The position numbers and the translations under genes are program-made. A stretch of DNA of 64,000 nt from a virus. Below are positions 3,381 through 59,599 of the stretch, piece after piece. Each line of letters begins with the position of its first letter. Position 1 is the stretch's first letter. The stretch covers positions 1 through 64,000 of the IMG/VR virus record IMGVR_UViG_3300025071_000010. One strand, 5' to 3'. Below the pieces are notes generated by a model. That model was given only the letters and a program-made list of their open reading frames with translations. It did not search any database and had not been told where the DNA came from.

Positions 3381-3527
3381 ATGGGCAAGCATGTTTCCGT
3401 TGTGATGAGAGAGCAACTTTTTGCTAAAATGGAAGCAGAACGAGGGCGTGAGTCTAAATCCTCCTTTGTTAATCATGCGCTTGCCTTTTACTTCAAAAAC
3501 AAAGAAAAGGTGAATAATGATGAATAA
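3381..3527 (+). CDS. Small ribbon-helix-helix DNA-binding protein
   Basis: A 48-residue protein that is easy to miss because of its size. ATG at 3381 is preceded by a perfect GGAGGT ten bases upstream. The sequence starts with a short alternating strand (HVSVVMREQLFAKM), followed by a helix and an SKSSFVNHALAFYF helix, which is the pattern of CopG/Arc-type ribbon-helix-helix proteins of about 45-55 residues. These act as dimers that insert a beta ribbon into the DNA major groove. The stop overlaps the start of the next gene at 3517, so translation is probably coupled. Likely role: transcription regulator of the membrane/GTPase operon or of the divergent gene. Confidence 0.7.
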   Translation: MGKHVSVVMREQLFAKMEAERGRESKSSFVNHALAFYFKNKEKVNNDE

Positions 3528-3969
3528 ACCTGATGAAAAACAACAACAGGGCTTCTATCCGCCCCCATTTGCGCCAGACGACACGAACAGAATTGACATT
3601 AACCTCATTGCTATGTTGTTATGGCAAGCCCTATTGACAGGTATTGCAGTAGCGATCTCTCACGCAGGTTGGTATCTCCCTGATGCGGGGGCAGGTGAGA
3701 TGGGATTACAATATGGGTTGATTGCCTTTGGTTTCCTTTGCACTTCGATGGTTCTTTTCCATGTCGGAGGGATTCGTGATTCTTTGGCTATGAGGGCCGA
3801 GTTTTCAAGAGAAAATCAAGTTGATAAATGGCAACGCCAACAAGCACGTTTGGCTCAACGCAGGGCATCAAAGCAAAATTATTGGCAAAATCAACAAAAC
3901 CCCCAATACCCACCTGGTCAAATAACTCAAAACACATTTGGAGTTCCGAATGACAAAAAAGAAGAATGA
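3517..3969 (+). CDS. Two-transmembrane protein with polar tail
   Basis: 150 residues. Two hydrophobic segments, at about residues 26-50 and 63-85, predict a small integral membrane protein. The C-terminal third is highly charged and glutamine-rich (QARLAQRRASKQ and repeated Q/N residues), likely cytoplasmic and perhaps coiled. Two in-frame ATGs at 3517 and 3520 follow an AAGGTGA site; either could be used. It overlaps the ribbon-helix-helix gene and precedes another single-membrane-span protein and the GTPase, so the genes probably form one membrane-associated unit. No family recognised. Confidence 0.75.
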   Translation: MMNKPDEKQQQGFYPPPFAPDDTNRIDINLIAMLLWQALLTGIAVAISHAGWYLPDAGAGEMGLQYGLIAFGFLCTSMVLFHVGGIRDSLAMRAEFSRENQVDKWQRQQARLAQRRASKQNYWQNQQNPQYPPGQITQNTFGVPNDKKEE

Positions 3970-3989: not shown

Positions 3990-4214
3990 ATGTGGCCTTT
4001 CACGACTCAAGCCGAGCGACAGACCGAAGCGATGTCGCAAATACTCGCTGAGAACGCATACGAAAGAAAAATGGAAAGGGTATCTGGATGGGTAAGGACA
4101 ATTTTAGCACTGGTTGGGGGCATTACCTTGACTTTTGCGATCCTAATCGGACTCGATACTTTGGGACTCACCCCAACCGACGTGTGGGAAAAAATCAAAG
4201 GACTTTTCAATTGA
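3990..4214 (+). CDS. Single-transmembrane small protein
   Basis: 74 residues: a polar helical N-terminal half (TQAERQTEAMSQILAENAYE) then one hydrophobic span at about residues 35-56 (ILALVGGITLTFAILIGL) and a short C-terminal tail. It lies 20 bases after the preceding membrane protein and 10 bases before the GTPase gene. The size and topology are compatible with a holin-like or accessory membrane protein, but nothing in the sequence decides this. Confidence 0.7.
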   Translation: MWPFTTQAERQTEAMSQILAENAYERKMERVSGWVRTILALVGGITLTFAILIGLDTLGLTPTDVWEKIKGLFN

Positions 4215-4224
4215 GGCTTAATCC

Positions 4225-4956
4225 ATGTCAGCCCTAATAGCGGGACACATGGTTATGGCTTCGGCCTCAGCCCTTTACACGCTATACCGCATCCTTAGAC
4301 CATTTCGAGTTGGGATATACGGGCCATCAATGGTTGGAAAAACAACTCTTGATCAATATCTTACCGTTCCTGGTGATATTGACCCTATTCCGTTTCACAT
4401 GAGAACGGCACACCCTAAATCAAATACTGCAACTGGATTTAAGCAACCGCATGAATCCAGAAAGCAAGTCCGAATGGTAAAAATCAAAAAACCAATTACA
4501 ACGACTGATATTGCGGGTGACTCTATGTTTCGCAACCTTTGGGTTGATGATATGTTCGGAAGAAACGTTGAATTGATTATGTTTATGGTTGATCATAGAG
4601 CCATGACTTCTCAACAATTTGCTATGGATGCCGCAGCGAGCCTTTCATATTTGGTTGATAACATCATCAAAAGAGACATCAGCAAAAACATCTCACGGAA
4701 AGCAAAAAAGAACTCAAAAAAATATACGCCCCGTTTGTTTTGTTTGATGATTAACAAAATGGATATTTGGTGGGATGATCGAACCGAGATGCTTTGGAAT
4801 ATGGGCTTACAAAAAGAACACCCGATTGTAGCCCCATTCCGTGATTCTTTGAGGCGTTTGCGTAAAGCAGGTATTCGTGCCGAAGTGATGGCTATGTCTT
4901 CGCAACACGGAATTAACGTCGAAAAGAACTTAATTGACTTATTAGATTCCTTGTAG
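4225..4956 (+). CDS. Membrane-anchored Arf/SRbeta-like small GTPase
   Basis: 243 residues. A hydrophobic N-terminal segment (about residues 3-22) is followed directly by a Ras-superfamily GTPase domain. G1 P-loop is GPSMVGKTT (33-41), G3 is DIAGD (95-99, DxxG), and G4 is NKMD (177-180), the guanine-specificity motif; an SSQ near residue 230 could be G5. One N-terminal membrane span plus an Arf-like domain is the layout of the SRP-receptor beta subunit. Small GTPases of this kind are very rare in viruses. The gene sits among small membrane proteins, suggesting a GTP-controlled membrane function such as trafficking, membrane remodelling or exit. That role is inference; the GTPase call itself rests on visible motifs. 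Confidence 0.8.
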   Translation: MSALIAGHMVMASASALYTLYRILRPFRVGIYGPSMVGKTTLDQYLTVPGDIDPIPFHMRTAHPKSNTATGFKQPHESRKQVRMVKIKKPITTTDIAGDSMFRNLWVDDMFGRNVELIMFMVDHRAMTSQQFAMDAAASLSYLVDNIIKRDISKNISRKAKKNSKKYTPRLFCLMINKMDIWWDDRTEMLWNMGLQKEHPIVAPFRDSLRRLRKAGIRAEVMAMSSQHGINVEKNLIDLLDSL

Positions 4957-4969
4957 GAGAACCCTTATC

Positions 4970-5950
4970 ATGTTGTCAGTTATGGGAGGGTTAATGGCGT
5001 GGAATGCTCAAGCCCTCAACCCCATGTCGTATGTGCCTTATCAACGAGGCTTGAAATTGCATGGATTAGATGCTGAACAATTGAAGGTGGTGTCTTCTCA
5101 AACTGGCGTTTCAGTTGAATTATTGAGGTCGCAGCAACGTGCTGAGATGGCAAGTGCTGGATCGACAGGTGACATTGGAGATGAACAATTGATCCCAACT
5201 GTTGAAATACAACTTAAATCCAACCCTAAAAATCCTAAAAAAGCACGTAAGAAAAACATTAAGATGCTTCGCAAAGCATTGAGGCCACCAAATTACAATT
5301 TAGGACTTTTCAAAATATACCGATACAATGCAGCGCATGAATGTGCTTGCTGCGGGGTTGATATTCGCAGGTTCCTTGAAGGCGATAACGCATACGCTCA
5401 CATTGTTGATGACAGAACGGGCCTTTCTCTTGCTGATACATACTGGTTCGATGAAGAAACAGGGAATGCTCGAAAGCCATTAGCCAGAACTCATGGCGAT
5501 CACGGCGACGAAATGAACAGTTCTCTTTGCCCCGCACATCTCCACATTTACCACACTTTGAAATCATTGGTTCAAGAACATGAAATGGCCGAAGAAGGTT
5601 TCAGCCGTATTGCCTCTAAAGGAACCAAGTTCACCCGCATTCCTGGTATGGGGGTATTGATGGGCGCAGGTCAAGCAAAGAATCGTAGCACATCGGACTC
5701 ATTATTGAAATACGAACCGTTTTTTGCTTTAATCCATAAAGATGCACAGCACAGCAAAGGAGTTCAATTGACCCAACTCCCCAATCCAACGACAGGAGTT
5801 GTTGATATTGTGCAAGTCACATTCGATTTACGGGCTTTACAGGCGGAAAGCGTGTTGGCTCAAAGAAGTGCAATGGCAAATGGAGTTGCTATGCAAAACG
5901 CTATGAATGCCCAGTTCGTGCCGCAACAAGAGACTCCGATTCAACAGTAG
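4970..5950 (+). CDS. Hypothetical protein with Cys/His cluster
   Basis: 326 residues. The central region has a CACCGVD cysteine group followed about 70 residues later by LCPAHLHIYH, so four or more Cys/His residues could coordinate a metal. The spacing is reminiscent of an HNH-like or treble-clef fold, but the catalytic residues of HNH nucleases cannot be assigned. The N-terminal ~100 residues include a lysine-rich stretch (NPKKARKKN). The C-terminus is glutamine-rich. It lies 13 bases after the GTPase gene and is followed by the GM/N-repeat protein. Alternative start at the second ATG (4982). Function unknown. Confidence 0.7.
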   Translation: MLSVMGGLMAWNAQALNPMSYVPYQRGLKLHGLDAEQLKVVSSQTGVSVELLRSQQRAEMASAGSTGDIGDEQLIPTVEIQLKSNPKNPKKARKKNIKMLRKALRPPNYNLGLFKIYRYNAAHECACCGVDIRRFLEGDNAYAHIVDDRTGLSLADTYWFDEETGNARKPLARTHGDHGDEMNSSLCPAHLHIYHTLKSLVQEHEMAEEGFSRIASKGTKFTRIPGMGVLMGAGQAKNRSTSDSLLKYEPFFALIHKDAQHSKGVQLTQLPNPTTGVVDIVQVTFDLRALQAESVLAQRSAMANGVAMQNAMNAQFVPQQETPIQQ

Positions 5951-5959
5951 GTGGATAAT

Positions 5960-6601
5960 ATGGGATGGTTTAGCAAAAACGACACGCAAAGCAGCACACA
6001 ATTTGGCTCTCCCTCTCAACAAATGGGTGGAATGGGAATGAATGGAATGAATGGAATGAATGGAATGAACATGGGCATGGACCCATCAATGATGGGAATG
6101 CAAATGGCTCAAAACCCAATGATGCAACAAATGGCAAATGACCCAGTGACCGCAACTGCACGTTTGCTTCAACTCAACGATCCAGTGGCTCAATTCATCA
6201 CATCAAACAATATCGGATTGGTTATGGATTTAATCGGTGAAGTAGTTCGCCTTTCAATTAAAGAGTTCTTTACTCAGGTGTCATTTATTACAGACGAAAG
6301 CGGTAAAATTACATTAGACCCTTCTTCATTACCTCCTTCGATCAACACACTTTCTCCTGAAAATCTTGGATTAACAATGACTCGGCTTCAATCATCGGCG
6401 CAACAAACGCTTTCGATGAATGAGCAGCAAAGACAGATGTTCCTTCAAGCGCATTCAATGGGAATGACAATGAATCCTCAACAGCAACCTGGCTTCTTTG
6501 GCAACTTAATTGGCGGTATGCTTGGAAACCAAGTTCAACAACAAGGCGGATTTGGTCAAGTAGCAAAGACTGTGGGAACAGCAGGTATGGTGGCACTATG
6601 A
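5960..6601 (+). CDS. Methionine/glycine-rich repeat protein
   Basis: About 213 residues. ATG at 5960 is preferred over the upstream GTG (5951) because a TAGGTGGAT ribosome-binding site sits at the right distance. Residues ~20-45 are a low-complexity Gly-Met-Asn run built from a 9-base repeat. The middle (residues ~65-130) looks folded and helical, and the C-terminus is Gln/Gly-rich with hydrophobic patches (FFGNLIGGMLGNQ). The gene overlaps the next one by the ATGA junction at 6598. The repeated Met/Gly segments resemble linker or condensate-type regions; function is not recognised. Confidence 0.65.
   Translation: MGWFSKNDTQSSTQFGSPSQQMGGMGMNGMNGMNGMNMGMDPSMMGMQMAQNPMMQQMANDPVTATARLLQLNDPVAQFITSNNIGLVMDLIGEVVRLSIKEFFTQVSFITDESGKITLDPSSLPPSINTLSPENLGLTMTRLQSSAQQTLSMNEQQRQMFLQAHSMGMTMNPQQQPGFFGNLIGGMLGNQVQQQGGFGQVAKTVGTAGMVAL
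6027..6075 (+). repeat. 9-bp coding microrepeat (GMN)
   Basis: Tandem copies of a nonamer close to AATGGAATG encode alternating Gly-Met-Asn residues inside the Met/Gly-rich protein. The unit keeps the frame, so copy number could vary without disrupting the gene. Confidence 0.8.
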
Positions 6602-6843
6602 CGGAAAAAGAAAATCAACAACAAGACCTCAACTTTTACAGTGCGCCAAGCGCAATTTTGAATCCAAACAAAATGTTGGTCGAAAGTGCAACAATGATCT
6701 TCATCATTTCATTTATGATGGCTATGTTCGTTATGCTTGTTTGGCGTGGTTCCGAACTCAATTCAACTCAGGTATTGATGGGCGCATTTGGTTTGATTTT
6801 TACCTTTGGAATCGCAATTCGTCAATTTGCTTCCTTTCGGTGA
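6598..6843 (+). CDS. Small two-transmembrane protein
   Basis: 81 residues. A polar N-terminus is followed by two hydrophobic segments, about residues 30-48 (ATMIFIISFMMAMFVMLVW) and 58-76 (VLMGAFGLIFTFGIAI). ATG at 6598 overlaps the stop of the upstream gene, indicating translational coupling. This is the fourth small membrane-associated protein in the operon that contains the GTPase. No family recognised; a holin-like role is possible but unsupported. Confidence 0.7.
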   Translation: MTEKENQQQDLNFYSAPSAILNPNKMLVESATMIFIISFMMAMFVMLVWRGSELNSTQVLMGAFGLIFTFGIAIRQFASFR

Positions 6844-7106: not shown

Positions 7107-7814
7107 ATGGCTGGTCGGCAGACGAGAAAAAACTGTCCGTTTTGTCAGCATCCAGAACGTGATTTGATTGAGCAAAAGATTCTGGAAGGATCGCTTGATG
7201 TGAAGGATTGCGATTTAGAATATGGATGGGCTGAGGGAACAACACACCGCCACATGAGAAGGCATTCTGGAGAGTATTACAACAACAGCAATACAACCTG
7301 CCCCATTTGCACAGACCCCAACCGTTCCGAGATTGAAAAAGCAATTCTTGAAGGTGTTGCAGGTATTGACGACTTCGCTATTGAACTTGGGGTTGCCAGT
7401 AGCCTTGTTTCAACTCACATGGAAAAGCACACAAAGCCGATTATCCAACAGCACGTGCATATTGAAGCATTGCCGAATGCAATGAAAACAGTTCATGAAT
7501 CATTAGGCCGTGTTGAGTCCAATATGAATCGCTTAGACCGATTGTTGGGTCGAGTTCTCGATCATGTTGAGAATCAATTCGATGATGAGCAAGAAGTTAT
7601 TGAAATGCGTGATGTTGAAACCGCACTAAAGGTTCATCGTGAAGTTCGAGATACCTTAGTTGAATTAACAAAGTGGATGGAGAAGGCTGAAACGATTGAA
7701 GATAAACAATCAGTATCAATCCTTAATGTTCTCCAACAATTTTATTCGGAAAAATCACCCCATGAATGGGTTGAATTGAAGAAGCGTTTGGTTGCATCAG
7801 GGGTGATGAGTTAA
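7107..7814 (+). CDS. Tandem zinc-finger/HTH-like DNA-binding protein
   Basis: 235 residues. Two related modules occur in tandem: CPFC ... PER-LIEQKILEG ... HRHMRRH starting at residue 10, and CPIC ... PNR-EIEKAILEG ... STHMEKH about 56 residues later. Each has a CPxC pair, a shared 'I-x-x-x-I-L-E-G' helix, an HTH-like segment and a terminal H-x3-H-type pair, so each probably binds one zinc. The C-terminal half is a long, charged helical region, probably coiled coil. The position upstream of the terminase and the DNA-binding appearance make it a candidate small terminase or packaging-site recognition protein, but that is inference. It ends at an ATGA overlap with the next gene. Confidence 0.65.
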   Translation: MAGRQTRKNCPFCQHPERDLIEQKILEGSLDVKDCDLEYGWAEGTTHRHMRRHSGEYYNNSNTTCPICTDPNRSEIEKAILEGVAGIDDFAIELGVASSLVSTHMEKHTKPIIQQHVHIEALPNAMKTVHESLGRVESNMNRLDRLLGRVLDHVENQFDDEQEVIEMRDVETALKVHREVRDTLVELTKWMEKAETIEDKQSVSILNVLQQFYSEKSPHEWVELKKRLVASGVMS

Positions 7815-8254
7815 TGAAAACAGTTCGTCAATTGATGCTTGAAGATTTACCGCTACATAGCAACATATTGAAAAGTAAGAAGCCAAAAGAGGAATGGACT
7901 ATTGGTGATTTGACAAATTACACCAATTCGGTTGATATGGTTGTCAAACGTTGGGCGGAGGCTGTCACTGAGCATTTAGAGTTCCCTGAAAGCATAGTTG
8001 CTGAAATACTCGGCTCTTTAGTTGTCACACGCTTATTGATTGATGATTTGAAGATTTTAAGAAAGAATCCCTCGGCTGATTGCATTTCACTTCTTGATGG
8101 AACGCAAATCATCACCGATCTCAAACAGAAAATGCTTCCAATGTCAAAATCATACGCACGTGTTCCTTCTTTGGCTCAATGGTATATGACTTTACCAAAT
8201 GAAATAGATGTTGTTTATCGCTCAATACGAAGGAGGTTAAAGGATGGTCAGTAG
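7814..8254 (+). CDS. Hypothetical helical protein
   Basis: 146 residues, mostly helix-forming, with no cysteine cluster or membrane span. Its start overlaps the stop of the zinc-finger gene and its end overlaps the following gene by 11 bases, so the three are co-translated. The N-terminal region contains an NILKSKKPKEEW stretch. Position between a DNA-binding protein and a basic protein suggests a packaging or head role. Not recognised. Confidence 0.6.
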   Translation: MKTVRQLMLEDLPLHSNILKSKKPKEEWTIGDLTNYTNSVDMVVKRWAEAVTEHLEFPESIVAEILGSLVVTRLLIDDLKILRKNPSADCISLLDGTQIITDLKQKMLPMSKSYARVPSLAQWYMTLPNEIDVVYRSIRRRLKDGQ

Positions 8255-9716
8255 CAACCCAAGAGAACCCGTTCTTTGGACTCCAAGAACTCAAGAGATG
8301 ATGGGTGGTTTCAGTCCACGTGAAATGATTGATCATGACATTAACCCAAATGAGGATAGCGACGGTTTATCTCATCATGGCCGTGAAACGCCAGAAGATG
8401 GGGAGAGTCGTGATCAGCAAGACTCTCAAAAACGGAAAGAACGGGCAACGCGTGAATTAGCGGCAAAAATCCCCCACGTAAGCATCAAACCTGAGAAAAT
8501 AGATGACACTTTAGGGAGATCGCCGCAATTTGAACAGGAACAACAAATGATTGAAGCAGGTATTGGCCTTGATTTGAATAGGAACGGTATTGGCTTGTCA
8601 AATGGATTTAATGCTGGTTCTGTCCGAACAGAAGGCCCAAATATACGATACGGAGGGGGCAATACTTTGGTTCCAGGTATGCTTGGAAAGGCAATCAAAG
8701 ACCAAAAATGCACAGAATGTGGCAGGGCTGTTTGGATGCCAGACGACCCCAAAGGGTCTTGTATGTTTTGTGAAGCAGGGATAGATCCCGTAGTGGGTCG
8801 AAGGCAACACAGCGAAGCATTGCACATTGAGGGTCGTGATGACTTCGGAGATACTTCAAACATTGATTATTTCACCGCCAGCGAGGACATATTCACCGCC
8901 ACTTGGGATAGCGTCATCAAAGGCAAAAGGAAATACAAAGGCCGTCGAATGTATGACGATGAAGAATCCGAAGAGGAAGAAAAGAAGTCCAAATCAAAGC
9001 GTAAGCGAAAAAAGAAGCGTCAAGGAAAGAAGAAAAAAGCGGCACGTGGAGGCCGACAACCTAAATCAATGACAACTCGACGTGCTGGAAACCTTGAGCA
9101 AGACATTGATCGTGGCTCAAAACGTCAAGCATTCCATCCAAACAAACACAGTGAGGCAATTCGAGGCGTAGGCCGTTCAAGAACCGACAGGATTCCTCTT
9201 CGATTGCGTGACCCTATCGCATGGGAAAGAAAGAAAGCAAATGAGCGTATGCGAAGACAGATGGGTTCATTGCCGACAGGATTAACACATCACGCTGATA
9301 CAAGGGGCGTTGGAACAAAAGGCCGTTCTATATTGGGCGGCACTATTGGCTCAGGAACAAAAATGCCTTCTGTATCTCGAATGGGGTCTGGAACATCAAC
9401 AAAGCGATTTTCAAGAGATGCGGTGGGAGATCCGTTAGGCGCACATGACCCTCTTTTCACCAAAGCAAAACCAAATCTCACAAGAGCCGAGATTATGAGC
9501 ATGAAGCGTAAAATTGAGAAGTTGCTTCAACGCCTTAACAAATTGACAAAGACTACGCCAGAACTTGGAAACGAGGGTAAGGTGGGCGCACAGGCGAATA
9601 GCGACACGGCATCAGCACCAACTGGTGCAACCAAATTAAATGAGGAAGAACAACCGTATAGGGCATTTGTTGATATGGCTTTAGGACAAGAAATGGGGCT
9701 TATTGGCAAGAAGTGA
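8244..9716 (+). CDS. Tagged zinc-ribbon and polybasic protein
   Basis: 490 residues. A zinc ribbon (CTECGRAV...CMFC, about residues 152-172) is followed by the shared tag FTATWDSVIKG at 8892-8924 (residues 217-227). Directly after it is an acidic patch (EESEEEE) and a long Lys/Arg run (residues ~245-275) that must bind nucleic acid or an acidic partner. The rest is low-complexity Arg/Gly/Ser/Thr with a C-terminal helix. The arrangement 'tag then basic domain' is repeated in the protein at 55415. It overlaps the previous gene by 11 bases. Likely an internal head or DNA-associated protein (inference). Confidence 0.65.
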   Translation: MVSSNPREPVLWTPRTQEMMGGFSPREMIDHDINPNEDSDGLSHHGRETPEDGESRDQQDSQKRKERATRELAAKIPHVSIKPEKIDDTLGRSPQFEQEQQMIEAGIGLDLNRNGIGLSNGFNAGSVRTEGPNIRYGGGNTLVPGMLGKAIKDQKCTECGRAVWMPDDPKGSCMFCEAGIDPVVGRRQHSEALHIEGRDDFGDTSNIDYFTASEDIFTATWDSVIKGKRKYKGRRMYDDEESEEEEKKSKSKRKRKKKRQGKKKKAARGGRQPKSMTTRRAGNLEQDIDRGSKRQAFHPNKHSEAIRGVGRSRTDRIPLRLRDPIAWERKKANERMRRQMGSLPTGLTHHADTRGVGTKGRSILGGTIGSGTKMPSVSRMGSGTSTKRFSRDAVGDPLGAHDPLFTKAKPNLTRAEIMSMKRKIEKLLQRLNKLTKTTPELGNEGKVGAQANSDTASAPTGATKLNEEEQPYRAFVDMALGQEMGLIGKK

Positions 9717-29562: not shown

Positions 29563-29877
29563 ATGCCAAGACTCGAATTAGGCGACATAGACCTTGACAC
29601 TTCGCTTGAGATTAAAAAGCGAAGGAATACTCGAATGTTTGAGTTAGCAACGAATCAAGGTTCGATTGCCGAGGATCAATCTCCTTTCAGCAAAGAAAAC
29701 ATGGCGAGAGCAGCGAACACCTTTGTTAAGGTGACACAGCAACAAGCCAAAGACATTCAAAACATCGGCTCAGGAACACGTTGTTTGTCCTGTGGTATGC
29801 TTCACTTCTGTTGGACTCCCGAATGCGCCGTATGTGGAGATCAAATGCACTACAACTTAGGAGGACACCACCAATGA
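29563..29877 (+). CDS. Zinc-finger head-region protein
   Basis: About 104 residues. The C-terminus is a small zinc ribbon (C-L-S-C ... C-x-x-C: CLSCGMLHFCWTPECAVC) with a terminal HH pair. ATG at 29563 is preferred over GTG at 29542. The stop overlaps the start of the next gene. Small zinc proteins are numerous in this virus; role unknown. Confidence 0.6.
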   Translation: MPRLELGDIDLDTSLEIKKRRNTRMFELATNQGSIAEDQSPFSKENMARAANTFVKVTQQQAKDIQNIGSGTRCLSCGMLHFCWTPECAVCGDQMHYNLGGHHQ

Positions 29878-30239
29878 GCAAAAAAGACTCCAACCCATTC
29901 AACCCAACAAAGAAAAACCCTGATTCTCAGCCGTATAATGAACCAGTTAATCCAAAGAAAAGACAGCCTTTTGCACCAAAGCGGGATGTCGCTGCGGATA
30001 AGAAAAATATGGAGAACAACATGATGAATGATCCAAAGAACTTTGGTAAATCAAAGGATGTTGTTTTTGACACTTCATGGGATTTGATGAAGTTTGGCGA
30101 TTGCCCAGTTTGTCTTGGCGATCATATGGCTTGCCCTACACCTGATGTTCCAATGTCAGCATGTGGGACTCGAAGAAACGCAATTAAACACATGATGCGA
30201 GGCAAAGGTGGAAGACCCCCAATGATCCTCCGCCAGTAA
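29874..30239 (+). CDS. Tagged small zinc protein
   Basis: About 121 residues. The N-terminal half is basic, Lys/Pro/Asn-rich. The shared tag FDTSWDLMKFGD lies at 30066-30101 (residues 65-76) and runs directly into a zinc-binding CPVC...C...C region. Start ATG at 29874 overlaps the previous stop. Like the proteins at 53904 and 8244 it combines tag and zinc ribbon. Likely a virion internal protein (inference). Confidence 0.65.
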   Translation: MSKKDSNPFNPTKKNPDSQPYNEPVNPKKRQPFAPKRDVAADKKNMENNMMNDPKNFGKSKDVVFDTSWDLMKFGDCPVCLGDHMACPTPDVPMSACGTRRNAIKHMMRGKGGRPPMILRQ

Positions 30240-53404: not shown

Positions 53405-53902
53405 ATGGGCGCATTTGAACAAACATGGGCGTTTATCAAGTTTGATGATGAATCACCAACGCCTTATTTGAGCAATTCTTGTAAGCGTTGCGAAGAACAA
53501 TACCCGTTAATGCACGACCCCGACATACCCCCTTCAAGTCCCGACTTTCCAATACATGAACATCTCGCAACTTCTATGTGTAAAAAATGTCGCCACGATA
53601 AATTATCGGAATTAAAATGGACTCACGAAAACCACCCCGCACCAGACGTTATTGGCCTTGATGATCGACGAATGCTTAATCACCTTGTTGATATTGGGAA
53701 ATTAAAGGATGGGCAAGAGTCCACACAGAATGAGTTGGACTTTTTGAACACCCCTTGTATGATGAGTCAAACACGGTATGAAAATGACAGGGAAGATTCT
53801 TCGAGAGCATGGATGAAACCTTTGCCCCCATGCACTTGCGGAGGATGCCCACCTCTAAGGTGGTATGAACGAATGCAGGGAATACCAGAAGGGATGGAAT
53901 GA
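53405..53902 (+). CDS. N-terminally tagged zinc protein
   Basis: 165 residues. The tag-like FEQTWAFIKFDD starts at residue 4 (53414-53446). The rest has several Cys pairs: CKRC near residue 27, CKKC near residue 63 and a CTCGGC near residue 142, i.e. zinc-binding sites. GGTGAAATGAT precedes the ATG. First of a run of small proteins that follow the tail genes. Probably a packaged or ejected protein (inference). Confidence 0.65.
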   Translation: MGAFEQTWAFIKFDDESPTPYLSNSCKRCEEQYPLMHDPDIPPSSPDFPIHEHLATSMCKKCRHDKLSELKWTHENHPAPDVIGLDDRRMLNHLVDIGKLKDGQESTQNELDFLNTPCMMSQTRYENDREDSSRAWMKPLPPCTCGGCPPLRWYERMQGIPEGME

Positions 53903-53903
53903 A

Positions 53904-54509
53904 ATGAGCGATGGGAACTGTTATCAATGCGCTTTTCAAGCACTTATGACTGGAAATCCTGATTGGAAAAACCCACGTTTGATTCATAGCGACATAACGC
54001 ATTCCAAAACAGGTGAACCATATTCTCATGCCTATGTTGCTTATGATAAGGAACTTGAGTTTCCTGAACCGATGCCCGAAGAATGGGGTGGGAACATTCC
54101 AACAATGCAATTTGTTCACGACCAATCCAATTCATTCAAAGGATCAGGCGATATACCACGTATGTTTTATGAAATGAATGCAAAGCCAATACGTGATACA
54201 ATGCGTGAATACACGCTGGAACAAATGATGGAACAGGCAATGAAGCATTCACATTACGGACCCTGGCCTAATGAAGAAGCATTTGGAAAATCATGGGATT
54301 TGATGAAATCAGGGGTCAAACGCCTCAATACCAATAAGAAAGTTCCTATGCCCTGCCCTGAATGTAGGGGTCCGATGGAACATCAAGATGGTTATGTTGG
54401 TTCAAGTGGCCGTTATGTTGAACCTGCCTATATGTGCATGGACCCCAAAACAAGTTATTGCGAAGCAAGAAGGCATGATGTGAAAAGTTCATTGAAGGAG
54501 ATGAAATAA
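53904..54509 (+). CDS. Tagged protein: Cys/His domain plus zinc ribbon
   Basis: 201 residues from ATG at 53904 (an upstream ATG at 53865 would overlap the previous gene). N-terminal NCYQCAFQ and a later PYSHAYVAYD place Cys and His as in papain/transglutaminase-like folds, but no family can be named with confidence. The shared tag FGKSWDLMKSG is at 54282-54314 (residues 127-137). The C-terminus is a zinc ribbon (PCPECRG ... C). A short overlap joins it to the next gene. Confidence 0.6.
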   Translation: MSDGNCYQCAFQALMTGNPDWKNPRLIHSDITHSKTGEPYSHAYVAYDKELEFPEPMPEEWGGNIPTMQFVHDQSNSFKGSGDIPRMFYEMNAKPIRDTMREYTLEQMMEQAMKHSHYGPWPNEEAFGKSWDLMKSGVKRLNTNKKVPMPCPECRGPMEHQDGYVGSSGRYVEPAYMCMDPKTSYCEARRHDVKSSLKEMK

Positions 54510-54850
54510 TGCCAGTCCTCGACCCCCTAAAAGCCGCTTTGACCGACCACCTCCAAACGCTCATCAAGAAGTGTTCACTTGGTTCTGGGGCTTCCGATGC
54601 CTCAAGCCGTGATGGAGGCGCAGGGAATACAAAGATGAGTCAAAATACACTGGTTCAACGCATTGATGATCGAACCATCTCAGTTAGTGCGTTGTTCGAT
54701 TCGCAATTGAGCAGCGAACAGGCGATTACCGAAGTTGTTCTTCATGGGGAAAACCCTCTTGACTCACCATCCTTTAGGGCAACATTCATGCCAATAAACA
54801 AGAACGGCACAAATGAAGTCCGAATTGATATTCTAATGGAAGTGAGATAG
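54509..54850 (+). CDS. Small mixed alpha/beta protein
   Basis: 113 residues. The N-terminus (LDPLKAALTDHLQTLIKKC) is an amphipathic helix, followed by a Gly/Ser linker and a beta-rich half ending in EVRIDILMEVR. The start overlaps the upstream stop and the gene ends at a GTG start of the next. No tag. Not recognised. Confidence 0.55.
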   Translation: MPVLDPLKAALTDHLQTLIKKCSLGSGASDASSRDGGAGNTKMSQNTLVQRIDDRTISVSALFDSQLSSEQAITEVVLHGENPLDSPSFRATFMPINKNGTNEVRIDILMEVR

Positions 54851-55203
54851 TGTCCGATAAAAAATCCGAAGAAAAGAACGATGAAAAGATAGCCCCAGTG
54901 GTTGCAGGTGCGGCGAGAGTCGGAGTTGCAGCAGCAAAGAATCCAGCAGTTCGAGGGGCTGTTGGTGGTGCGGTTCAAGGAATGATGAAGAAACGGATTG
55001 ATGAACCATTTGAGATGACATGGGAATTGATGAAAAGCGACGAGAAGGGCGACAACGCCCCAACCAACCCTGGTCTTTGGTCGCAAGCCAAATCAAAGGC
55101 ACGTTCTAAGTTCAAGGTTTATCCATCAGCCTACGCTAACGGTTGGGCTTCTAAATGGTATAAATCCAAAGGCGGCGGCTGGAAGAAAAAGAGCAAGGAG
55201 TGA
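54850..55203 (+). CDS. Tagged Ala/Gly-rich basic protein
   Basis: 117 residues from GTG. The first ~20 are charged, then an Ala/Gly/Val helix (GAARVGVAAAKNPAVRGAVGGAV) that could be membrane-interacting. The tag FEMTWELMKSD (55009-55041, residues 54-64) lies in the middle and is followed by a basic, aromatic C-terminus rich in Lys/Trp. Tag in the centre, not the end, with the basic part after it, as in 8244 and 55415. Confidence 0.6.
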   Translation: MSDKKSEEKNDEKIAPVVAGAARVGVAAAKNPAVRGAVGGAVQGMMKKRIDEPFEMTWELMKSDEKGDNAPTNPGLWSQAKSKARSKFKVYPSAYANGWASKWYKSKGGGWKKKSKE

Positions 55204-55208
55204 ATGTC

Positions 55209-55403
55209 ATGGTTGAGTTGAAGAAAAAAGAATGTTGCTGTGGTGCAACTGAAAAAAACCCATGCGCTTGTATGAAAAAAGGAATTATGAAATGTTCCGC
55301 AAAAGTTCCTATGTGTCAATGCTACAAAGACCTCAAAAAAGAAGGCAAGCATCCTGATGATTTGAAAAAGGCATTTACCATTGCGTGGGATTATACATTC
55401 TAA
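55209..55403 (+). CDS. Cys-rich mini-protein ending in tag
   Basis: 64 residues; ATG at 55209, eight bases after an AAGGAG site. Nine cysteines in the first 45 residues (CCCG, CAC, C, C-Q-C) suggest metal clusters, like metallothionein. It ends with FTIAWDYTF (55374-55400), the tag cut off at the stop codon, so here the tag is C-terminal and lacks the LMKAD half. This shows the F-x-x-A-W-D core can exist without the downstream part. Confidence 0.6.
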   Translation: MVELKKKECCCGATEKNPCACMKKGIMKCSAKVPMCQCYKDLKKEGKHPDDLKKAFTIAWDYTF

Positions 55404-55414
55404 AGGTGATATAA

Positions 55415-55945
55415 TTGATTGACGTTCCTATCGCCGATCTCATCTCAAAGGATTTGAGGCGATGGTTCAAAGAAAAGTGGGTGGATGTTGGCAGTAAGGA
55501 CAAAGACGGCAACCACCCTCCCTGTGGCCGTAGTGACGCAAAGACTGATAGCAAAGGCTATCCCAAGTGCCGACCATCAAAGAAGGTCAGCAGCAAGACC
55601 CCTGAAACGACACGTGGCATCAGTTCAAAGGAGAAGAAGGCTATGACTCGAAGAAAGCGTTCAAAGCCACAGGGCGTTGGTGGAAAGCCAACGGTGGTTA
55701 AGAGCGATCCATTTGAAGCCGTATGGGATTCAATCATCAAAGGTCGCTTTCGAGGCTACACGCAATCAAACATCGGTGACAGGCCATACCGACAGGCCGA
55801 ACATAGAATCTGGGATATATCCCGTAAAGTCAAACGTGAGCGAACAAAACGACGATATAAGCGCAATAAAAGCAGGGGAACTGTTCGGCCAGCCATGCGC
55901 CGTCAATTAGGCGCAGGGGGCAAAAGAGCCTCCACAAAGAGGTGA
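55415..55945 (+). CDS. DUF5872-like basic protein with tag
   Basis: 176 residues from TTG with an AAAGGTGAT site. The N-terminal region (RWFKEKWVDVGSKDKDG, PCGRSD, YPKCRP) matches my memory of the DUF5872 family seen in viral and algal-virus proteins. The tag FEAVWDSIIKG is at 55712-55744 (residues 100-110). The C-terminus is strongly basic (KVKRERTKRRYKRNKSR), likely DNA-binding. This repeats the 'tag then basic tail' order. Family name is tentative. Confidence 0.6.
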   Translation: MIDVPIADLISKDLRRWFKEKWVDVGSKDKDGNHPPCGRSDAKTDSKGYPKCRPSKKVSSKTPETTRGISSKEKKAMTRRKRSKPQGVGGKPTVVKSDPFEAVWDSIIKGRFRGYTQSNIGDRPYRQAEHRIWDISRKVKRERTKRRYKRNKSRGTVRPAMRRQLGAGGKRASTKR

Positions 55946-55953
55946 GGCTTGAT

Positions 55954-57156
55954 ATGATTTTTGATGCTGCATGGGATATGATGAAAGCCGACATTTTTCA
56001 TGAGGGGCGAGCCTATTCCAGCATGGATGATTTGATGCCTAAATTGAATCAGCAAATTGAAGGATGGGGGGGAAGCAACAAACAATTGTCGCCATTCCCA
56101 TTCCCGTATAAAAGCGGAAACTATCGGCATAAATCGTGGAAAGGAATGTCAGATCGAGGGCTTGATGATTTCATAAATAAAAATCCAGGTTTCAAATCAA
56201 GCAGCGAGATGTTGCCAGCAATGATGCCCTGGGTTGGTGGAAAAACACAAATCCAGCCATACATTAGGGGTCTTGCCGATTTTTTCCCTAATGCCCGACC
56301 TGCTGAACTTTATGGGGGAAGCGGTTCGACAATTCTCGGTATGAACAGGGGAACTGGTTTTTATGCAGACATAAACCCCGATAATACTAACGCATTTCAA
56401 CACTTAAAAGATGGTTTAGGGGTCGTTGAAATCCCAAAAACAAGAGAGCGTATGGCTGAGATGGTTTCAAGAATGAATGATTTGAGATTTAGGCGTGATG
56501 TGAAAGGAGAACAATTGTCAAGCGATGAATTATCGGAACTCGCATCTCATTACATTGGAACAAATCATCAAGCATTTGGCAATTTGAAATATCCTAATCA
56601 AAAACAAAGGAAAAACTATCCTGAATGGTATGGTGGTTCACGATATACCGAAGGACCAATTATGGATAAACAAGGATGGCGTAAGAGTTCGGTGAGAGTT
56701 ATGCCGCACAAAGTCGGAGGTCTTGATTTGAGCGCATACCCAGATAGGATGCGTGATGTTGAGATTCATACTGGGGATCTTCGAGACACACATAAATTGC
56801 TACAAGGCGACGAATACCTTTACCTCGACCCTCAATATATTGACCGAATGCACCAATATGGAGGTTCGGATGAACAACTATCAGGTGGGGGTTATGACCA
56901 ACTTCAACGAGACACCATAAGGATTGGTGCTGAACATGACGGGCCAGTTCTTTATTCAAATTATTTGGTTGGTCCAAAATCAGGTTTGCCCAACGAAGAG
57001 ATGATTGCAGATCTGCTGGATAGTGGTTTCGATGCACATACATGGATGAGAAAACCAAAGGGCAACTCAAGACCCGTAGTTGAAGTTCTTGGATTGAGAA
57101 ATCATCCTGAACACGTTCAAAGAGGATTGAAAACAAAAAGACTTTTTGATTACTGA
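55954..57156 (+). CDS. Tagged Dam-like methyltransferase (DPQY variant)
   Basis: About 400 residues from ATG at 55954, after a GAGGTGAG site. The tag FDAAWDMMKAD occupies residues 3-13 (55960-55992), the extreme N-terminus. The catalytic domain has WVGGK (93-97), ELYGGSGS (from residue 118, AdoMet loop, where most Dam enzymes have FxGxG) and DPQY (292-295), a variant of DPPY. The Pro-to-Gln change may alter activity. A second methyltransferase in one virus, again tagged, is notable. It ends at an overlap with a tiny membrane-protein gene. Confidence 0.8.
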   Translation: MIFDAAWDMMKADIFHEGRAYSSMDDLMPKLNQQIEGWGGSNKQLSPFPFPYKSGNYRHKSWKGMSDRGLDDFINKNPGFKSSSEMLPAMMPWVGGKTQIQPYIRGLADFFPNARPAELYGGSGSTILGMNRGTGFYADINPDNTNAFQHLKDGLGVVEIPKTRERMAEMVSRMNDLRFRRDVKGEQLSSDELSELASHYIGTNHQAFGNLKYPNQKQRKNYPEWYGGSRYTEGPIMDKQGWRKSSVRVMPHKVGGLDLSAYPDRMRDVEIHTGDLRDTHKLLQGDEYLYLDPQYIDRMHQYGGSDEQLSGGGYDQLQRDTIRIGAEHDGPVLYSNYLVGPKSGLPNEEMIADLLDSGFDAHTWMRKPKGNSRPVVEVLGLRNHPEHVQRGLKTKRLFDY

Positions 57157-58691: not shown

Positions 58692-59072
58692 TCAATCCTC
58701 TTCCAATTCCATCAATCTTTTTATCCTTTCACGCATTTCAACGCTCATGATGTCGCCTTTGTCGTGCATTCGATACTCAGGATTGGGCTTTATGATTTTC
58801 CCTGAACCATCTTCCATCAATCTTTTCATCTTTTCACGCATTTCAACGCTCATGATGTCGCCTTTGTCGTGCATTCGATACGGAGGATCAATCATTTGGG
58901 TTTTTCCTGAACCAGCCAGTGCAGCAATAAGATGAGGCGGCGCACCACCTTTCCCTGCATAGGCATTCATGACCTTGAGTTGTTCTTCGCTCATTGGAGG
59001 TTTTAATTCTTCATCATTCGTGGTTTCCCACCAATCGGCCTTCATCAAATCCCATGCTCTTTGAAAAACCAT
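58692..59072 (-). CDS. Tagged small protein with duplicated segment and P-loop-like motif
   Basis: 126 residues from ATG at 59072, overlapping the upstream stop as TGATG; the tag FQRAWDLMKAD is at residues 3-13 (59034-59066), exactly as in the methyltransferase at 55954. After a short stretch comes ALAGSGKT, a Walker A-like sequence seen in UvrD/Rep-type helicases, but no other helicase motif follows, so it may be a remnant. The C-terminal half is two copies of a ~23-residue unit (RMHDKGDIMSVEMRE), duplicated at the DNA level. Function unknown. Confidence 0.6.
   Translation of the reverse strand: MVFQRAWDLMKADWWETTNDEELKPPMSEEQLKVMNAYAGKGGAPPHLIAALAGSGKTQMIDPPYRMHDKGDIMSVEMREKMKRLMEDGSGKIIKPNPEYRMHDKGDIMSVEMRERIKRLMELEED
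58709..58776 (-). repeat. 68-bp direct repeat, copy A
   Basis: Matches copy B (58814-58881) at 66 of 68 positions by eye, 105 bases away. The offset is a multiple of three, so both encode the same peptide in frame. Recent tandem duplication within a gene. Confidence 0.85.
58814..58881 (-). repeat. 68-bp direct repeat, copy B
   Basis: Second copy of the duplicated segment; see copy A. The differences are in the TTTTTATCC versus TTTTCATCT portion. Confidence 0.85.
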
Positions 59073-59599
59073 CAACAATTCCACCTTTTCAATGCTGCAC
59101 CTTTCGGAGTCATTTTGCCACCTTTACTGGTCGGACCTTTGACTCCACCCATTCGAGCGCAAAAAGACTTTCGCCTCTTGGCCTTCTTCGATCCAGCCTT
59201 GAGTTTGCTTGGTTTAGTGGTGACTGGGGGCTTGAGATTTGCACCTTCTTCACGCTTGAACTTGGCTCGACCCTTTGCATTTAATCCACCTTTACGGCTA
59301 TGCTTGTTTGGGTTGTAGCCGTGAAATGGTTTTGACTTCTTTTTACCTTTGAGTAAAGCATCAACCAATAGTTCGTCGGACTTTGTAAAAGAACGTTTCC
59401 TCCATTGCGAAGGTTTTGTTGCCCTCATCGTTCCGTATGGTGTGCTTTCAAAGCCGCATCCATCGCATTTAGGAGTTGAGCCTTTTCCATTGCATTGACC
59501 GCACACGTGCTTTCCTTTCTTTGCATCGGGGGTTGGCTTTTTCTCACGCCCAATAACGGTTTTGGTTAAGAGGTTGCAGGTATCGCAATCACACGTCAT
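59072..59599 (-). CDS. DUF6321-like zinc protein
   Basis: 175 residues. N-terminus CDCDTC and then a DnaJ-like pair CGQC ... CDGC bind zinc. The C-terminal end (RRKSFCARMGGVKGP ... ALKRWNC) matches the short DUF6321 motif that is widespread in viruses. Between them is a basic Lys/Ser/Gly-rich region and DALLKGKKK, which loosely resembles the second half of the tag. Stop overlaps the ATG of the tagged gene at 59072; start overlaps the gene at 59589. Confidence 0.65.
   Translation of the reverse strand: MTCDCDTCNLLTKTVIGREKKPTPDAKKGKHVCGQCNGKGSTPKCDGCGFESTPYGTMRATKPSQWRKRSFTKSDELLVDALLKGKKKSKPFHGYNPNKHSRKGGLNAKGRAKFKREEGANLKPPVTTKPSKLKAGSKKAKRRKSFCARMGGVKGPTSKGGKMTPKGAALKRWNC

Follow-up and report, generated by a model that had tools for sequence, protein, structure and literature searches.

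A predicted small GTPase of mixed Arf and ArvA affinity as a core gene of magrovirus-type viruses, within a conserved block of putative membrane-protein genes

Introduction

Small GTPases are well-known proteins. Those that act on membranes characterise eukaryotic cells and also occur in a few systems of archaea, and genes of this type are most familiar for their role in the vesicle traffic of complex cells. P-loop GTPases are recognised by the motifs GxxxxGK[ST] (G1), DxxG (G3) and NKxD (G4). Members of the Arf family are marked by a G3 motif of the form DxGGQ, which carries the catalytic Gln, and by an N-terminal amphipathic helix that can be myristoylated at Gly2 and to which an interswitch toggle is coupled. 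Giant viruses are also known to carry small GTPases, of the Rab/Ras type. To our knowledge, the exit of head-tailed archaeal viruses from their cells is largely unknown. Among archaeal systems, vesicles of Haloferax are formed by the action of the GTPase ArvA (PMC10927574).

The stretch of viral DNA analysed here (referred to as the window; 64,000 nucleotides, positions 1 to 64,000 of IMG/VR record IMGVR_UViG_3300025071_000010) was found to contain an ORF for a putative small GTPase of Arf/ArvA-like character (4225..4956, + strand; 243 aa, ATG start), this assignment being based on the ORF, family motifs and predicted fold. A first-pass annotation made from the sequence of the window had described the product as a membrane-anchored Ras-superfamily GTPase, very unusual for a head-tailed virus.

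Motifs of the GTPase and selection on its gene

The motifs GPSMVGKTT, DIAGD and NKMD, reported in that order by the first-pass annotation, were confirmed in the 243-aa ORF and correspond to G1 or the P-loop (residues 33-41; 4321..4347), G3 (residues 95-99; 4507..4521) and the G4 element of guanine specificity (residues 177-180; 4753..4764), all on the + strand. Also on this strand, a G5-like element, MSSQHG (residues 224-229, with SSQ at ~225-227; 4894..4911), was identified from the family alignment, with the variants SAQ, SSQ, AAQ, ATR and ATK among relatives, and a candidate G2 or switch-I Thr was assigned by position to T61 of 'IPxxxRT' (4405..4407). Residues G33, G38, K39, T40, T41, T61, D95, G98, N177, K178 and D180 were found to be invariant across 63 non-redundant relatives, thus including GKTT of the P-loop and N, K and D of G4. 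As judged from this invariance, the motif set of the ORF lies far beyond chance. Strong purifying selection acts on the gene (dN/dS ~0.05 against its closest relative, L001, by the Nei-Gojobori method), and a chance or low-complexity ORF was ruled out by the family-wide invariance of the motifs, by the dN/dS and by the structural model described below. The GTPase is predicted to bind GTP by means of its G1, G3, G4 and G5 elements and to hydrolyse it. Searches of Pfam, PHROG and PDB with the window protein alone gave GTPase matches that were all sub-threshold, with no Pfam cut-off passed, so such genes are easily left as hypothetical.

The catalytic Gln of Arf proteins had been noted to be missing after DIAGD, which holds for the window protein but not as a feature of the family, since the last position of G3 is Gln in 37/63 relatives (DIGGQ, DVGGQ, DIAGQ, DLGGQ, DVAGQ), with D, E or H in the other 26. 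On the tree, the window protein lies within a clade of eight, all with D at this position (support 99/99), while E and D were found there in the second clade of the family too. The absence of Gln in the window protein is accordingly read from the tree as a derived, subclade-specific change and not as a family trait. A pseudogene or dead GTPase was ruled out, the change seen in the window being confined to this clade of eight; replacements by D, E or H recur in the family while every nucleotide-binding residue stays invariant. Owing to these replacements, hydrolysis may be slow or GAP-dependent in the members concerned and may differ among members of the family; nucleotide binding should not.

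Predicted structure and N-terminal helix

Structure prediction, proposed as a check in the first-pass annotation, was performed with AlphaFold2 on an alignment of 63 rows and gave a confident model with the alpha/beta fold of small GTPases (pLDDT 88.2, pTM 0.85); a poor model from an earlier alignment of 13 sequences (pLDDT 60) was set aside. Comparison of the model to PDB using Foldseek returned 1148 matches at E <= 0.001, with Rab and other small GTPases on top. Following re-alignment with VIA-align, Z was at least 8 for 1000/1000 chains, with small GTPases at the top, the first rows being Arl1, Arf6, Arl8b and Arf1 (Z 17.6-17.2, 157-163 residues, 2.3-2.5 A), and with Asgard GerdArfR1 (Z 16.7), SRbeta (16.2) and Lokiarchaeal RagO (15.9) in lower rows. 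These matches agree with the SRbeta/Arf-like architecture first proposed for the protein. As the differences in Z are below 2, they cannot tell Arf from SRbeta from Rag, and the modelled fold is described as Arf/SRbeta/Rag-like.

A candidate membrane-associating helix was identified at the N-terminus from the model, hydropathy and moment (residues 2-24; 4228..4296, + strand), ending in a basic YRxLRPxR. The hydrophobic anchor claimed for this region was retained as a helix in the model but not as a clear transmembrane segment, with the best 17-residue Kyte-Doolittle mean of the helix being ~1.3 across the family (moderate hydrophobicity only) and with no segment above the transmembrane threshold of 1.6 in 51/53 family members. 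It may represent a weak membrane helix, or an amphipathic one, instead of a clear anchor, and from its sequence, association of the GTPase with a membrane through this helix is likely.

Affinity to cellular GTPases

The best match of the family profile against PDB was the Asgard Arf GTPase 8oun (E 1.8e-6). The profile also gave matches in 71/194 genomes of Thermoplasmatota, the phylum of the hosts, and its best cellular match there adjoins OapB (DUF2073) in 32/33 genomes having both, by which it was recognised as ArvA. Alignment of the family to ArvA using hhalign gave a probability of 95.5 with 43% identity over 44 columns that cover the P-loop and switch I, this match being limited to residues ~25-69 and stopping short of G3. 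The ArvA pattern IYGPPxxGKTTLANR ... IPHETRR was found to be present only in part in the viral family (IYGPxxxGKTTL ... IPxxxR), and at G3 the viral proteins have D[IVLM][GA]G[QEDH] where ArvA has DTPG. Sequence affinity is divided, switch I pointing to euryarchaeal ArvA and G3 to Asgard or eukaryotic Arf.

Assignment to a single named family was rejected, given that hmmsearch and hhalign favour ArvA (residues 25-69) while the PDB profile search and the fold favour Arf. Because of this split no named family is assigned, and the viral GTPases are treated here, on their motifs and profiles, as a separate family of mixed affinities that is filed under neither Arf nor ArvA. PF00025 gave no match at E <= 1 for the window protein and weak matches in 28/63 relatives (best E 1.6e-4), with weak matches to PF09439 in 7/63 members. 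What had been called a full Ras-superfamily GTPase is consequently upheld as a genuine small GTPase, but not as a member of a named family. The phylogeny against archaeal and eukaryotic GTPases that had been suggested for the protein was also carried out: the viral GTPases formed a single clade, separated from ArvA by a branch of 3.9 changes per site, though this deep tree, built with ArvA and ARF1 only, shows a long branch and does not settle the origin of the family.

Distribution among viruses and host

Stepwise scans of IMG/VR identified relatives in growing number, 12 in the first (51-92% identity), 56 in the next and, in the end, at least 240 loci on viral contigs, with a second GTPase clade at ~40% identity. 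Large contigs picked by capsid or terminase contained the GTPase in 17/30 cases, with the remaining 13 ending before its expected place, and it was present in 17/17 of those that reach this place. The GTPase is a core gene of magrovirus-type viruses. Matching capsid and terminase genes were found in all 12 records picked by GTPase (11 virus contigs and a single-cell genome), with identities in the first clade versus the second of 77-81% vs 64-66% for MCP and 75-79% vs 44-47% for TerL. This divergence is ordered as in the GTPase, so inheritance of the GTPase in these viruses is consistent with being vertical.

The rarity in head-tailed viruses that had been remarked on at first is supported: no PHROG family was found, a tblastn search of 50,697 phage records gave no match to the window protein, and among viral models in BFVD, the best 50 rows were all from eukaryotic giant viruses. 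Druskaviridae (HVTV-1, HCTV-1) were identified as the nearest cultured relatives by capsid (MCP 32% identity), and the GTPase was not found in them by profile. Apparent bacterial homologues in Maricaulis (L059) and Cytophagaceae (L060) MAGs were rejected, as these are short contigs with the viral block that lie inside the viral clade; they are probably misbinned virus DNA in public bacterial MAGs. Internal TGA codons in second-clade capsid genes were dismissed as an artefact of an alignment that ran upstream of the start codon.

A 106-kb magrovirus-type contig (L058; CACGHY010000002.1) was found in the Poseidoniales single-cell genome AG-422-I20, on which the GTPase gene lies with those for the capsid protein (81%) and the terminase (78%) in the arrangement of the window. 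The virus group is linked by this contig to Poseidoniales, archaea that are very common in the ocean, and from this relative the host of the window virus would be the same. Apart from the virus contig itself, a search of 60 host-family genomes gave no cellular homologue of the GTPase, three other matches there being P-loop-only (12-13 bits). PF00025 had no match in 40 genomes of the host order, and OapB was not found in the 14 host-order members of the phylum sample; completeness of these genomes being not given, the absence is taken as moderate evidence. Recent capture of the gene from the host was rejected on the lack of a homologue in the 60 host-family genomes and on the length of the branch to ArvA.

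Gene block containing the GTPase

The GTPase gene lies in a block of closely spaced genes, which overlap or sit 0-21 bases apart. Upstream of it, on the + strand, are ORFs for a membrane protein that has two TM segments at its N-terminus and a tail that is charged, rich in Q and coiled-coil-like (3517..3969) and for a membrane protein with one TM (3990..4214; N-terminus MWPF / MGWLFKT). Downstream, on the same strand, are ORFs for a soluble, conserved and probably Zn-binding protein that carries the Cys/His cluster C..G.D ... CPxHLHxYH (4970..5950), a conserved soluble Gln/Met-rich protein (5951..6601; N-terminus MGWFS / MVWPFS) and a protein of 81 aa that has two TM segments and resembles holins in size and topology (6598..6843). 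The operon with three small membrane proteins described by the first-pass annotation was therefore recovered. Its ribbon-helix-helix (RHH) regulator was retained as a short RHH-like ORF of 48 aa (3381..3527, + strand), recognised by sequence pattern with no Pfam match and present in the first clade only.

Neighbours in related viruses, whose comparison had also been proposed, showed the same order (2TM, 1TM, GTPase, Cys/His protein, Q/M-rich protein, 2TM) in 58 diverse loci in addition to the window, and this order is kept across relatives of 37 to 92% identity; where some of the loci were without a label for one block gene, this was tentatively put down to ORF calling. The block lies upstream of the terminase, being followed by a zinc-finger/HTH protein that is TerS-like by position (7107-7814) and then by head-region genes toward TerL. 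Searches of PDB, Pfam and PHROG revealed no recognised relatives of the block proteins tested, with no Pfam or PDB match of note for the 4970..5950 protein and no PHROG match for that of 5951..6601. No OapB/arvB (DUF2073) partner was found with Pfam among the window neighbours scanned.

Similar N-termini were observed for the products of 3990-4214 (MWPFT / MGWLFKT) and 5951-6601 (MGWFS / MVWPFS), kept in both clades, and perhaps represent a binding or membrane motif. In the second clade (for example L066, L070, L114, L128 and L136), an ORF of ~1,590-1,700 aa is often located directly upstream of the block, at the place where the first clade has methyltransferase and RHH genes.

Elsewhere in the window, a motif F(D/E)xxWD(L/S)(M/I)K was observed to recur in many proteins that share no other relationship, frequently close to one terminus, with 12 matches to FxxxW[DEY] versus 1.5 (maximum 6) in shuffled proteins. 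The ORFs concerned are 473-2791, 8244-9716, 29781-30239, 53865-54509, 54850-55203, 55200-55403, 55415-55945, 55942-57156 and 58692-59084, and the motif is possibly a common tag for virion packaging or for binding to a protease or assembly factor. Among them, 473-2791 resembles D12-class adenine methyltransferases (Pfam E 4.9e-9) and 55942-57156 is similar to it in sequence character; the two could possibly serve in virion-delivered DNA modification.

Proposed function

At somewhat less than an even chance, and thus tentatively, the GTPase is proposed to be the switch subunit of a virus-encoded membrane complex that would act in late membrane remodelling, in the timing of virion release or in the docking of assembly. 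A GTPase of Arf/ArvA type would bind GTP and be seated by its N-terminal helix on the cytoplasmic side of the host's membrane, and its cycling between GDP and GTP would control the partners encoded by 3517-3969, 3990-4214, 4970-5950, 5951-6601 and 6598-6843. The most likely task would be late membrane remodelling in Poseidoniales, by which virion release would be prepared or timed, or assembly docked at the membrane. The neighbour-encoded proteins would form a complex with the GTPase, late expression of the block is suggested by its strand and its position beside the terminase, and egress rather than assembly or entry is our guess. Egress or remodelling is favoured on three grounds: its nearest relatives in sequence and fold, ArvA and Arf, are membrane-shaping proteins; related viruses that have the same head genes are without the block; and one of the block products is a holin-sized 2-TM protein.

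A bolder form of this proposal, which we consider unlikely, is that the GTPase and its five partners constitute an Arf-type machine that buds or cuts the host membrane for virion release, as a viral counterpart, evolved independently, of eukaryotic Arf/COP and archaeal ArvA vesiculation; the hosts would here be without the archaeal ArvA vesiculation GTPase system.

Control of lysis is unlikely, but several properties of the block speak for it. The 81-aa protein (6598-6843) would form a holin-like pore regulated by the small membrane proteins, with the GTPase as a timer and not a membrane shaper. A lytic lifestyle is predicted for magroviruses (PMC10768690, PMC12999244). The 2-TM protein has the same layout throughout the family (77-105 aa), its gene lies on the same strand in the block upstream of the terminase, and, in the window, the surroundings of the module held no further recognised lysis gene. 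However, no match to a holin family was seen for this protein, the two conserved soluble proteins are left unexplained, and we know of no precedent for a GTPase timer of lysis.

It is decidedly unlikely that the complex serves to tether procapsids or the terminase to the membrane with the GTPase as an assembly checkpoint, a role that would suit the run from the block through the zinc-finger/HTH protein and head-region genes to TerL, several genes of this region being co-conserved. Druskaviridae possess TerL and the head genes with no block between RadA/TerS and TerL, and since they package without it at that place, the block is dispensable for such packaging in other hosts.

A decoy or inhibitor, in which a captured GTPase would sequester or misregulate a factor of the host's membrane or defence and hydrolysis would be unimportant, is very unlikely. 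The repeated loss of Gln in 26/63 members and the long branch to cellular GTPases would fit such a role, but no variation is seen in the P-loop Lys/Thr, NKxD and G3 Asp, the block stays fixed even between deeply diverged relatives, as host-interaction genes seldom do, and no host homologue to mimic was found in the host-family and host-order genomes searched.

Least probable is an SRbeta-like targeting receptor, a membrane-anchored GTPase that would recruit a targeting factor for the insertion of viral membrane proteins, to which the N-terminal helix followed by a GTPase domain, the SRbeta Z and the weak PF09439 matches would point, but Arf/Arl score at least equally, the helix is not a clear TM and the block has no recognised partner of the SRalpha/SRX type.

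Comparison with known systems

As far as found, no earlier description exists of an Arf-like family that head-tailed archaeal viruses carry as a core gene together with fixed partners. No link between magroviruses and a GTPase was found in the literature searched, with GTP not mentioned by Xu et al. 2023 and an earlier mention being possible in the main magrovirus papers (Philosof 2017, Prabhu 2025). A GTPase fixed with membrane partners in archaeal viruses that are among the most abundant in the surface ocean would provide a compact genetic system for GTPase action on archaeal membranes, and would also offer a first candidate mechanism for the exit of head-tailed archaeal viruses from their cells.

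Arf/Arl proteins, including Asgard ArfR1 (8oum/8oun), share with the viral family the fold (Z 16.4-17.6, rmsd ~2.5 A), a helix before beta-1 and, in many viral relatives, a DxGGQ-type G3. Unlike them, the viral proteins show ~17-20% identity to Arf/Arl, have a longer and distinct switch-I region (residues 45-80) and are encoded within a viral operon of membrane proteins, the subclade of the window being without Gln. The window protein also has Ser as residue 2 instead of the myristoylatable Gly2, with the helix nonetheless present in the model. ArvA (OapA; PMC10927574) is alike in its IYGPxxxGKTTL ... IPxxxR stretch, N-terminal helix and operon context, but its G3 is DTPGIATK and the viral match is confined to the N-terminal third. 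SRbeta (SRPRB) shares the layout of a membrane helix followed by a GTPase domain (Z 16.2), whereas the viral protein is without a clear TM helix or a partner recognised in the block and matches SRbeta more weakly in sequence than Arf. Druskaviridae (HVTV-1, HCTV-1) are similar in genome size and head-gene layout but are without the block between RadA/TerS and TerL, and the profile found no such GTPase in them. Finally, the Rab/Ras proteins of giant viruses are likewise virus-encoded small GTPases of the same fold, but belong to another virus realm with other hosts and are close enough to cellular Rab/Ras for annotation, whereas the magrovirus family is deeply diverged and forms part of a fixed gene block.
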